41,333 nucleotides of DNA from Candidatus Kaiserbacteria bacterium. GTDB taxonomy: Bacteria > Patescibacteriota > Minisyncoccia > Phycocordibacterales > UBA918. Both the position numbers and the translations under genes were made by a program. Of the stretch, positions 6,291-37,759 are shown one piece after another. Location of the stretch: contig JAGQMJ010000006.1 of NCBI GenBank assembly GCA_020428685.1, forward strand, positions 1 through 41,333, in the 5' to 3' direction. The notes beneath the pieces were generated by a model. The model worked only from the letters and a program-made list of their open reading frames with translations, did not search any database and was not told the DNA's origin. Every line of letters begins with the position of its first letter. Within the stretch, counting starts at the first letter, position 1.

Positions 6291-7253
6291 TTATGGCTCA
6301 CCGAGAGCAGTGACATGTTCGTACACACAGTCCTGAAGGGCAGTCAAATTGTAACCACCCTCAAGAACTGAAACGATTCTGCCCCCACAAGTTTTGTTTG
6401 CGGAGTCCACCAACATTCTGGTCAATTCGTAATAATCCTTCGCAGTAACACAGAGATTGGTCAGAGGATCAGACGGGTGCATGTCGAAGCCGGCGGATAC
6501 GAGAATAAGGTCTGGCTTGAATTCAAGCATCCGCGGCAAAACATTTTCTTCATACAGCTTACGAATCGCTGAAAAATCAGACCCTGCGGGAATGGGTACT
6601 CGGACTGAGTTGTGAGGCGCTTCTCCCCTTACATACTTACACCCCTCCTGATATGAAGAAAAGAAAAGAAGATTGCCAGGTTCACATTTGGACAAAATCT
6701 CTTCAGTACCATTACCGTGATGACGATCGAAATCAACCACCACAACCTTCATGTCCTCCCTCAATGAGAGTGCGTGTAAAGCACCGATAGCAACATTGTT
6801 TAATAAGCAAAACCCCTCGCCACGTTCATAACCAGCATGATGTCCCGGTGGACGAACAGAACAAAAAGCCCTTGTTGTGTCGCCAGCAATAACGTCATTG
6901 ACGGCACGGCAGACAGTTCCCGCAGCATTAACAGCTGCGAAATACGAGCCTGGTGAAACTCGTGTATACCACTGAATGTGAGGGTTGAAAATATTAGCCA
7001 GTGTTGCCCTGACCAACCCCATGTTGCTTATGGAATGCAGACACTCCACATACTTTTTACTGTGAGCCCTAAGTATCGAGCCGTAAGTAGCAAAATATTC
7101 ATCACCACGGATTATATTGACCGAGACTCTACGAATAGTAAACACCTCAAACATCCAGTCCAAACAGTCAATACGCTCCACTCGCTCAGCGAACAAAGGA
7201 AAACCCTTATGATTAGGAGAATACTGAGAATCATACAAAGTGATATTAACCAT
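6291..7253 (-). CDS. Class II histone deacetylase / AcuC-like deacetylase
   Basis: 320 residues from the ATG at 7253, which has AAGGAGG 7 nt upstream; an earlier ATG at 7271 overlaps that ribosome site and is rejected. Motifs: RPPGHHA with the His138-His139 pair, DFDRHHGNGT with zinc ligands Asp176 and His178, SAGFDMHPSDP with Asp257, and EGGY near 299. Known: zinc-dependent removal of acetyl groups from lysine side chains or polyamines. Inferred: a cytoplasmic protein or polyamine deacetylase. All catalytic residues are present. It is monocistronic with an extended -10 box 42 nt upstream of the ATG. Confidence 0.9.
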   Translation of the reverse strand: MVNITLYDSQYSPNHKGFPLFAERVERIDCLDWMFEVFTIRRVSVNIIRGDEYFATYGSILRAHSKKYVECLHSISNMGLVRATLANIFNPHIQWYTRVSPGSYFAAVNAAGTVCRAVNDVIAGDTTRAFCSVRPPGHHAGYERGEGFCLLNNVAIGALHALSLREDMKVVVVDFDRHHGNGTEEILSKCEPGNLLFFSSYQEGCKYVRGEAPHNSVRVPIPAGSDFSAIRKLYEENVLPRMLEFKPDLILVSAGFDMHPSDPLTNLCVTAKDYYELTRMLVDSANKTCGGRIVSVLEGGYNLTALQDCVYEHVTALGEP

Positions 7254-7294
7254 GTCGCAACCTCCTTGCATTTATGAAGATCAAACCCACCTCC

Positions 7295-35519: not shown

Positions 35520-36149
35520 ATGAAGAATACCTTCATCGCCATTTGTGCGTTCCTGTTCGCCAGCCTGGCTCACGCCGGCCTGATCCCGAACGGCAGCTTC
35601 GAAAGTGGCTTCACTTCCTGGGACACCAACAACAACCTGGCCAGCGTCGTCTCGAGCTATACGGCCAGCAATGGTAGTACGCCCGTCAGTATGTACGCAA
35701 CTGACGGCAACCAGTTTGCTATTTTGCAGGCCAATAAGCCGGCTACCAGCATCTGGTCGAGCGCGTTCACGGTCGGTATCGGCGACGTCCTGCTGCTTGA
35801 CTCTTTCTACGACTCGAAGGACTACCCGCCGTTCAATGACAAAGGTCTGTTCTGGCTCAAAATGGTCAGTGGCAATACTACCATCTTGAGCGGCCTGCTC
35901 GGCAGTGTCGGCACTGTGGGCAGCTACGGTCTGTCCGGCTGGACCACGCACAGCTTCACCATGACCACAAGTGGCAACGTGAAGCTGATGTTGTCGTCAA
36001 CCAATGGTGGCGACAACAACCTCGACAGCGTCCTCGGCATCGACAACGTCCGCGTGAACCGCGTCCCCGAACCGGGTACGCTCGCGCTGGCGAGTCTGGC
36101 CGGCGTCGGTTTGGCGGGTTTCACCCGCCGCAAGAAAAAGACTGCCTAA
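35520..36149 (+). CDS. PEP-CTERM sorting-domain protein, probably acquired from a proteobacterium
   Basis: 209 residues. Signal peptide MKNTFIAICAFLFASLAHA (1-19), a beta-rich outer domain beginning GLIPNGSFESGFTSWDT, and a classic PEP-CTERM tail: VPEPGTLALASLAGVGLAGF followed by TRRKKKTA. Known: PEP-CTERM proteins are processed by exosortase and occur mainly in Gram-negative biofilm formers; CPR cells are not expected to have the system and none is visible here. By hand count, GC is 33/60 at 35581-35640 and 37/60 at 36001-36060, against 25/60 in murA at 36601-36660. GGAG stands 9 nt before the ATG. The 240 bp upstream hold a TTGACA at 35407 and no gene. Either transfer from a host-like betaproteobacterium or an assembly chimera. 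Confidence 0.9.
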   Translation: MKNTFIAICAFLFASLAHAGLIPNGSFESGFTSWDTNNNLASVVSSYTASNGSTPVSMYATDGNQFAILQANKPATSIWSSAFTVGIGDVLLLDSFYDSKDYPPFNDKGLFWLKMVSGNTTILSGLLGSVGTVGSYGLSGWTTHSFTMTTSGNVKLMLSSTNGGDNNLDSVLGIDNVRVNRVPEPGTLALASLAGVGLAGFTRRKKKTA

Positions 36150-36228: not shown

Positions 36229-36247
36229 ATAGCATATATGCTATACT
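36229..36247 (+). promoter_or_regulatory. murA promoter with overlapping perfect palindrome
   Basis: ATAGCATATATGCTAT (36229-36244) is a perfect 16-bp palindrome. The extended -10 box TGCTATACT (36239-36247) shares its right half and ends 9 nt before the murA ATG. The gene product carries an HTH domain, so this is a natural candidate for its own operator. Confidence 0.7.
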
Positions 36248-36256
36248 ACATTTTAT

Positions 36257-37759
36257 ATGGATAATCACATTGGAACCCGCATTGCCGACGTGCGAGAAAC
36301 TCTCGGCATGACACAAGCAGCCTTAGCCAAAAAAATCGGTACTACTCAGAGCGCCATCGCCCGCATTGAAGCTGGTGGTCAAAACGTCAGTGCAGACATG
36401 CTAAAGAAAATCAGCAAAGCCCTCGGCAAAAACCTCATTACTCTTTCACCAGGGACCGTCAACGTCACCATTGAGGGTGGCAAAAAGCTATCCGGCTCAA
36501 TCGAAACCAACACATCCAAGAACGGAGCAGTTGGACTACTCTGTGCCTCACTTCTAAACAAAGGCACTACTACTCTCCACAGTATGCCTCGTATTGAGGA
36601 AGTACATCGTATTATCGAAGTCCTTGAAAGTATTGGCGTAAAAGTGGACTGGCACGACAACACTGTAGTCATTACCCCACCTAAAAAATTCGATTTAAAA
36701 AAGATTGACGAAGTTGCTGCTAGAAAGACGAGAAGTATCGTCATGTTTATAGGCCCATTGATTCACCATCTAGAATCATTTTCACTTCCACAATCTGGTG
36801 GCTGCAAGCTAGGTAGCCGTACCGTGAAGCCTCACTTTTTTGCGCTTGAGCATTTTGGTGTTGACATCAAAACCACCGACGAGGCCTTTGTGGTCAAGTG
36901 TCAAACTAAGCGACCCCAAGAAATTATTCTATACGAATCAGGTGACACAGTGACCGAGAACGCTCTTTTTGCTGCCGCTGGTCGCACCGACACCACAGTC
37001 ATAAAGTACGCTTCAGCCAACTACATGGTGCAAGAGGTTTGTACGTTCTTACAAAAACTCGGAGTCACTATTACTGGTGTTGGTACCACTACCCTTACCG
37101 TCACCGGAATCGGCGACATCAATCAAAACATAGCCTACACCCTTTCCGAAGACCCTACAGACAGTATGTTTTTCTTGGCTGCTTCCATAGTGACAGGATC
37201 AAGCATTACTATCACTCGCTGTCCGATTGAGTTCCTTGAACTAGAACTCCTCAAGCTTGAGAAAATGGGCTTTAAGTATAAAAAAAGTAAGCCGTACCTG
37301 AGTCACAACGGTGTCACCAAACTAGTAGACATCACCACCAAACCATCAAAACTAAAAGCGCTGCATGAGAAAATCCATCCGTCTGTTTATCCTGGACTCA
37401 ACATCGACAATCTTCCCTTCTTCGCTGTTATTGCCACTCAGGCTGAGGGGCAAACACTGATTCATGATTGGGTTTATGAAAAGCGAGCTATTTATTTTAC
37501 TGAGTTAGACAAGTTGGGAGCTGAGACTGTCTTGGCAGACCCACACCGAATCTATATAAACGGCCCGACCAAACTACGTGGCAATGAACTAATCTGCCCA
37601 CCAGCCCTTCGCCCAGCTACAATTCTGCTTATTGGGATGTTGGCTGCTTCGGGCGAATCTGTACTGCGCAACATCTACAGTATCAACCGAGGTTACGAAA
37701 AATTAGTTGAGCGCCTCGCTTCGCTCGGCGCCAGAATCTCATACCTAGACGAGTTCTAA
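36257..37759 (+). CDS. murA: HTH-MurA fusion: UDP-GlcNAc enolpyruvyl transferase with N-terminal XRE domain
   Basis: 500 residues. Residues 1-65 form an XRE/Cro-type helix-turn-helix (IADVRETLGMTQAALAKKIG, TTQSAIARIEAG). Residues 66-500 are a complete MurA: Lys88-Asn89 in TSKNGA, catalytic Cys183 in GGCKLGSR, Asp384 in PGLNIDNL, Arg452 in ALRPA and the terminal NRGYEKL. Known: MurA transfers enolpyruvate from PEP to UDP-GlcNAc, the first committed step of peptidoglycan synthesis, and is normally about 420 residues with no DNA-binding part. Inferred: the enzyme may regulate its own gene through the palindrome on its promoter. The cysteine active site predicts fosfomycin sensitivity. Confidence 0.95.
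   Translation: MDNHIGTRIADVRETLGMTQAALAKKIGTTQSAIARIEAGGQNVSADMLKKISKALGKNLITLSPGTVNVTIEGGKKLSGSIETNTSKNGAVGLLCASLLNKGTTTLHSMPRIEEVHRIIEVLESIGVKVDWHDNTVVITPPKKFDLKKIDEVAARKTRSIVMFIGPLIHHLESFSLPQSGGCKLGSRTVKPHFFALEHFGVDIKTTDEAFVVKCQTKRPQEIILYESGDTVTENALFAAAGRTDTTVIKYASANYMVQEVCTFLQKLGVTITGVGTTTLTVTGIGDINQNIAYTLSEDPTDSMFFLAASIVTGSSITITRCPIEFLELELLKLEKMGFKYKKSKPYLSHNGVTKLVDITTKPSKLKALHEKIHPSVYPGLNIDNLPFFAVIATQAEGQTLIHDWVYEKRAIYFTELDKLGAETVLADPHRIYINGPTKLRGNELICPPALRPATILLIGMLAASGESVLRNIYSINRGYEKLVERLASLGARISYLDEF

Follow-up and report, generated by a model that had tools for sequence, protein, structure and literature searches.

The bio operon is under the control of BirA, a repressor with established ligand gating. 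In this group II biotin protein ligase, an N-terminal helix-turn-helix (HTH) is joined to a metabolic enzyme; the protein binds an operator, and genes of the pathway in which it works are repressed (PMC6978683, PMC6391492, PMC4016012). Other trigger enzymes and PutA, which is both a proline dehydrogenase and a repressor, are likewise metabolic enzymes that act directly as transcriptional repressors (PMC6978683); however, PutA is a catabolic enzyme without a link to cell-wall synthesis. The first committed step of peptidoglycan synthesis is also restricted by the state of the cell, via feedback of UDP-MurNAc on MurA and via the control of MurAA by ReoM/IreB and ClpCP (PMC12077105). These controls act on activity or stability. 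GlmR (YvcK) of Bacillus subtilis is a separate protein and not a MurA, and it is not known to repress murA by binding DNA. Like the system considered here, it steers carbon into UDP-GlcNAc and peptidoglycan (PMC6171935).

The protein described below, HTH-MurA, would restrict the same step at the level of transcription. By analogy, it would be a BirA-like "trigger enzyme" for peptidoglycan, but its enzyme is unrelated to that of BirA, and its main predicted target is its own gene, joined by glmS and pta. Its HTH belongs to the same family as that of the phage 434 repressor and other HTH_3/XRE regulators and contains a similar recognition segment, whereas the 434 repressor stands alone and has no enzyme fused to it. 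From sequence comparison, it is very probable that this MurA regulates its own gene as well as its own supply. No report of an HTH-MurA fusion or of MurA-driven transcriptional control was found in the open-access literature searched, and the novelty of such a control is provisional.

The gene was found in the window, that is, the whole stretch of 41,333 nt that was analysed. The following features were assigned to the locus:

36229..36244, no strand: candidate operator, the perfect 16-bp palindrome ATAGCATATATGCTAT, 12 nt before the ATG
36239..36247, + strand: extended -10 element TGcTATACT, shared in part with the right arm of the candidate operator
36257..37759, + strand: HTH-MurA fusion gene, ATG start, 500 aa
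36281..36436, + strand: XRE-type helix-turn-helix (HTH_3), residues 9-60, from Pfam and the helices of the AlphaFold2 model
36344..36367, + strand: recognition segment, residues 30-37 (T-Q-S-A-I-A-R-I); Thr30 co-varies with half-site base 4
36440..36451, + strand: linker residues 62-65, pLDDT < 50, between the HTH and the MurA domain
36473..37717, + strand: MurA catalytic domain, residues 73-487, from Pfam EPSP_synthase and a structure match

The sequence-only reading had described an XRE-type HTH joined to a catalytically complete MurA, with a perfect 16-bp palindrome lying on the extended -10 box 12 nt before the start codon. The palindrome was confirmed at 36229-36244, and the two domains were confirmed by Pfam. 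In the 500-aa ORF, HTH_3 covered residues 9-60 with 57.6 bits, against a cut-off of 23, and EPSP_synthase covered residues 73-487 with 148.9 bits. MurA PRK09369 was the best NCBIfam match, its 308.8 bits exceeding the cut-off of 297; for TIGR01072, the score of 300.6 bits fell short of the cut-off of 392.7, and the aroA profile gave only 82.3 bits. The AlphaFold2 model was built from a 48-sequence alignment (mean pLDDT 89, pTM 0.83) and placed four HTH helices at residues 5-15, 20-27, 31-38 and 46-56. When this model was used for a structure search, the matches covered the MurA part only, with Z scores of 43-47 to solved MurA structures and of 36 to AroA; C. jejuni MurA (5ujs) gave 47.4 with 415 residues aligned. 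The HTH was matched to the 434 repressor by phmmer (1per_L, E 4.3e-5).

The claim of catalytic completeness stood in part. K88, N89, R159, C183, R188, D384, R410, R452 and R478, which align to E. coli K22, N23, R91, C115, R120, D305, R331, R371 and R397, respectively, were invariant across 48 relatives. The equivalent of E. coli MurA D369, however, is Ala450 (37604-37606), which was also invariant in the 48 relatives, HTH-less ones included. The alanine is a property of the whole MurA clade, with or without the HTH, and the assignment as MurA rests on other features; catalysis by the domain is not certain, given this residue. HTH-MurA is the sole EPSP_synthase-family gene in the 808-kb assembly, and the same was true for nearly all murA-bearing relatives. 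Because MurB was found in 49/59 relatives and the window also contains genes for a PBP-type transpeptidase and two MreB proteins, the peptidoglycan pathway is likely in use.

A search for further genomic copies of ATAGCATATATGCTAT had been proposed; the 808-kb assembly contained one exact copy only. No other match with up to 3 mismatches was present in the window, and 9/100 dinucleotide shuffles of the window had one. An 8/8 dyad within 150 nt upstream, taken alone, has a p of ~0.005; the strong evidence for the palindrome is its conservation, not this lone-dyad statistic. An alignment of the relatives on the site showed hardly any variation at bases 1-5 and 11-16, apart from the specificity bases 3-4 and 13-14. 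At site positions 14-19, 67/88 relatives had a hexamer that shares at least 5 of its 6 bases with TATAAT; in most CT-class sites, the hexamer was shifted by 2. Bases 1-5 of the left arm were conserved as well as the right arm, though the left arm has no promoter role. A pure promoter signature was rejected, because of this equal conservation of the left arm and because the promoters of HTH-less murA genes did not contain the palindrome. Only 9 nt separate the end of the -10 hexamer from the ATG (window 36242-36257), and the murA transcript is therefore predicted to be nearly leaderless. In most genus members, the site ended only 6-12 nt ahead of the HTH coding region.

The fusion was present in 29 of the 34 further genomes of the genus, and most of the remaining members of the MurA clade at the level of the order carried it too. 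A phylum-wide sample of 145 genomes contained 23 with this MurA clade (identity at least 46%), 14 of which carried the HTH; the remaining genomes had an ordinary MurA of at most 37% identity without an HTH, or no clear MurA match. The enzyme and the DNA-binding domain were thus kept in one polypeptide across lineages. For the quantification of site conservation, 102 distinct murA loci of the clade were used, 90 with and 12 without the HTH. They stemmed mostly from Kaiserbacteria, Nomurabacteria, Taylorbacteria and other Paceibacteria, with some from Uhrbacteria, Doudnabacteria and Saccharibacteria. The motif AT[AC]NC-N6-GN[TG]AT was searched with zero mismatches in the 150 nt upstream. It was found at 84/90 HTH-murA genes and at 0/12 HTH-less genes, and in 1.4-1.8% of shuffled upstream regions, and the survey of related MurA proteins that had been proposed thus came out in favour of the palindrome. 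The association of site and HTH had a Fisher p of 1.4e-11, phylogeny ignored. On a tree of the MurA domain alone, about 10 losses of the HTH were counted, and the site was lost together with it. For 7 independent pairs on supported branches, 6.5 were concordant on average and none opposed (median p 0.03). No clear upstream site was found at two HTH-murA loci (L125 and L129). Chance or an assembly artefact was ruled out, because gene and site recurred in many independent MAGs. At four Nomurabacteria-like loci (L100, L108, L109 and L232), the HTH-less murA lies directly behind an apparent tRNA-Leu gene, as if it shared the tRNA promoter.

Four forms of the half-site were observed, ATAGC, ATATC, ATCTC and ATACC, and both arms had the same base 4 in 79/88 sites, with 42 expected if the arms were independent. 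The identity of this base followed the recognition helix. For all 54 Thr30 proteins (helix start TTQS), one or both arms carried G as base 4. For 30/32 Ser30 proteins (TSQS), base 4 was T or C in either arm; the two genes that deviate are sisters, and the site of one of them is half-converted. Helices of the SSxPR type paired with ATCTC, and NR or QP helices with ATACC/ATATC. The switches of helix and half-site were few on the tree (4 and 3 changes), and therefore the co-variation rests on few events; a phylogeny-aware comparison yielded only 2-4 pairs, none discordant. Because that test had too few changes to reach significance, all 495 protein columns were compared, and residue 30 turned out to be the best predictor of base 4 (normalised mutual information 0.85, next best 0.44). 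Shared ancestry alone would not be expected to pick out this residue from 495 columns. In the 434 repressor, the counterpart of residue 30 is Thr27, a DNA-contacting position. Together with the conserved dyad, these results are strong indirect evidence for an operator code that pairs Thr30 with G and Ser30 with T or C, and for binding of the palindrome by a dimer. An arm-changed form of the operator was designated as contrast sequence (ATATCATATATGATAT).

Predictions were fixed in advance for 22 further clade members from the phylum-wide sample. Thirteen had the HTH and one of these was already in the training set, leaving 12 new HTH genes and 9 HTH-less genes. The exact site was present at 8/12 new HTH genes and a site with one mismatch at 2/12. 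At the other two (L229 and L231) no site was found; one has a degenerate helix and one has SSQSAIHR. The exact site was found at 0/9 new HTH-less genes. All ten sites of the predicted set belong to Ser30 proteins and, as forecast, none had a G at base 4.

The genus form of the site, ATAGC-N6-GCTAT, was scanned in 34 genus genomes and was found at every HTH-murA; a reversed control pattern gave 0-6 matches per genome. Zero copies were detected in the murA-less genomes G021 and G026, one unrelated copy in the murA-less G030 and one intragenic copy in G015, which has an HTH-less murA. G021, G026 and G030 are at least 90% complete and contain MurB, and no EPSP_synthase-family gene was found in them; murA may have been lost, replaced or missed in the assembly. 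At glmS, the site was located 12-81 nt upstream in 10/15 genus genomes that have both glmS and HTH-murA. That of the source genome is ATAGCATATACGCTAT (G000:C1:26158-26173), 12 nt before the ATG. No glmS site was found in the other 5/15, nor at the glmS genes of four other families. As glmS genes without the site reached at most 8/10 consensus bases, the two groups were cleanly split. The pta gene was present in just 4/59 relatives, and the site was found ~50-80 nt upstream in 4/4. Both genes were named by NCBIfam. At our own estimate of ~1e-3 such sites per gene, the binomial probabilities are ~1e-27 for glmS and ~1e-12 for pta, relatedness ignored. At some glmS and pta promoters, the distance to the start codon is 43-81 nt, and the site is not clearly at the -10 position.

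Several sites were confined to single genomes, i.e. at murC in G008 (10 nt), at a NUDIX gene in G010 and at a class F-like sortase gene in G036. In G050, the site lies between the divergent murB and murA genes, ~10 nt from the ORF starts on either side. As a target, murI in L116 was dropped, the site being located between the murI end and a NUDIX gene 11 nt downstream. Sites at a TrpR-like regulator, at tgt and at a LemA-like gene as well as intragenic matches were set aside as belonging to other regulators or to chance. A different perfect palindrome, TATCATATATGATA, has many copies in G013 and also occurs at L215:2001-2014, 10 nt before a YerC/YecD TrpR-like gene, which suggests another autoregulated repressor with several sites. 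At L217:2001-2038, two close palindromes (TATCATATAAGATA / TATCTTATATGATA) are found just upstream of a tgt-like gene (queuine tRNA-ribosyltransferase, named by eye), and paired palindromes are also present in G001 and G020.

The fusion, the conserved site, their joint loss, the co-variation of helix and half-site, the overlap with the -10 element, and the glmS and pta sites are all supported by comparison, and from these we infer DNA binding, dimer formation, and repression rather than activation. The proposal that MurA controls its own transcription through the palindrome is thereby strongly supported at the level of sequence. The idea of a self-contained loop in one polypeptide was too narrow, and a purely local autoregulation in the genus was rejected in view of the glmS and pta sites. 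We consider it highly probable that HTH-MurA is a bifunctional protein that binds the sites at its own promoter, glmS and pta and combines autorepression with the control of supply. Its C-terminal domain would make enolpyruvyl-UDP-GlcNAc, the first committed peptidoglycan precursor, and its N-terminal XRE dimer would sit on the palindrome over its own extended -10 element and exclude RNA polymerase. In the genus, the same protein would bind the glmS site and, where present, the pta site, so that the level of the entry enzyme and the UDP-GlcNAc supply would be set by one protein. Glucosamine-6-P is the product of GlmS, and Pta can make acetyl-CoA, which is needed by GlmU. Because glmS and pta share the regulon, the repressor would be tied to the UDP-GlcNAc supply, and given the shared site, HTH-MurA looks like a trans-acting repressor of this supply as well as an autorepressor.

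The most straightforward reading is repression, since RNA polymerase could not start where a dimer covers the -10 element; this position argues for repression without proving it. Activation of murA, glmS and pta through this one site would fit those glmS and pta sites that are not clearly at the -10 position, but it is very improbable, as a dimer bound at the murA site would keep RNA polymerase away. Alternatively, the palindrome could be the site of an unlinked regulator or a promoter style of the clade, and the HTH could serve localisation or oligomerisation. The coincidence of the right arm with the extended -10 element means that part of the conservation is due to the promoter, and related palindromes (TATCATATATGATA) do occur near other genes, e.g. 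the TrpR-like gene in L215. However, the equally conserved left arm, the disappearance of the site together with the HTH, the tracking of the site sequence by the recognition helix of the fused protein above any other protein column, and the lack of copies in the murA-less G021 and G026 make this explanation very unlikely. It is also very unlikely that the MurA domain is non-catalytic and only the sensor domain of a transcription factor. Ala450 would be in line with this, but the alanine is shared by HTH-less relatives, the HTH-less G015 has no second EPSP_synthase-family gene, the nine other active-site residues are invariant, most genomes have no other member of the family, and most contain MurB, the user of the MurA product.

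The autorepression could be constitutive, as with XRE repressors of the antitoxin type: HTH-MurA would bind DNA whatever its ligand state and hold its own level constant, with no metabolic sensing. This is a serious, if somewhat doubtful, alternative. Linker residues 62-65 may be flexible, to judge from their low pLDDT in the model, the HTH is readily lost, leaving a MurA without it, and no ligand-coupling residues could be identified; the sites at glmS and pta, in contrast, are easier to understand if the repressor reports the status of precursors. About as plausible to us, and held tentatively with slightly greater confidence, is that HTH-MurA is a true metabolic sensor, in which DNA binding depends on whether the active site is occupied by substrate or dormant with UDP-MurNAc and PEP, and which in this way controls its own transcription and that of glmS and pta. 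In other bacteria, UDP-MurNAc inhibits MurA and traps it in a closed dormant complex (cited in PMC12077105). As a signal, UDP-MurNAc is no less likely than UDP-GlcNAc or PEP, which the sequence-only reading had suggested MurA senses through its open and closed states. Our favoured corepressor, speculatively, is UDP-MurNAc together with PEP in the closed dormant complex, which would be a sensible corepressor form because repression of glmS under UDP-GlcNAc scarcity would be counter-productive. If HTH-MurA is such a sensor, fosfomycin or a build-up of precursors would become a transcriptional signal.

A repressor that is also the entry enzyme would explain how tiny-genome, regulator-poor bacteria match cell-wall entry to supply. 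The protein occurs in many lineages of the candidate phyla, and the comparison offers a concrete candidate operator code for it; a single purified protein and short DNA duplexes would suffice to test regulation in these largely uncultured bacteria.

Two further genes of the window deserve mention. Between mreB and HTH-murA, a PEP-CTERM protein gene is located at 35520-36149 (+ strand; PF07589, 24.5 bits; local G+C ~51%). The stretch immediately before murA in relatives resembles a divergent mreB start, and the PEP-CTERM gene looks like a recent insertion, an acquired gene or an assembly join. A histone-deacetylase-family gene (PF00850) is encoded at 6291-7271 on the - strand of this tiny-genome bacterium.
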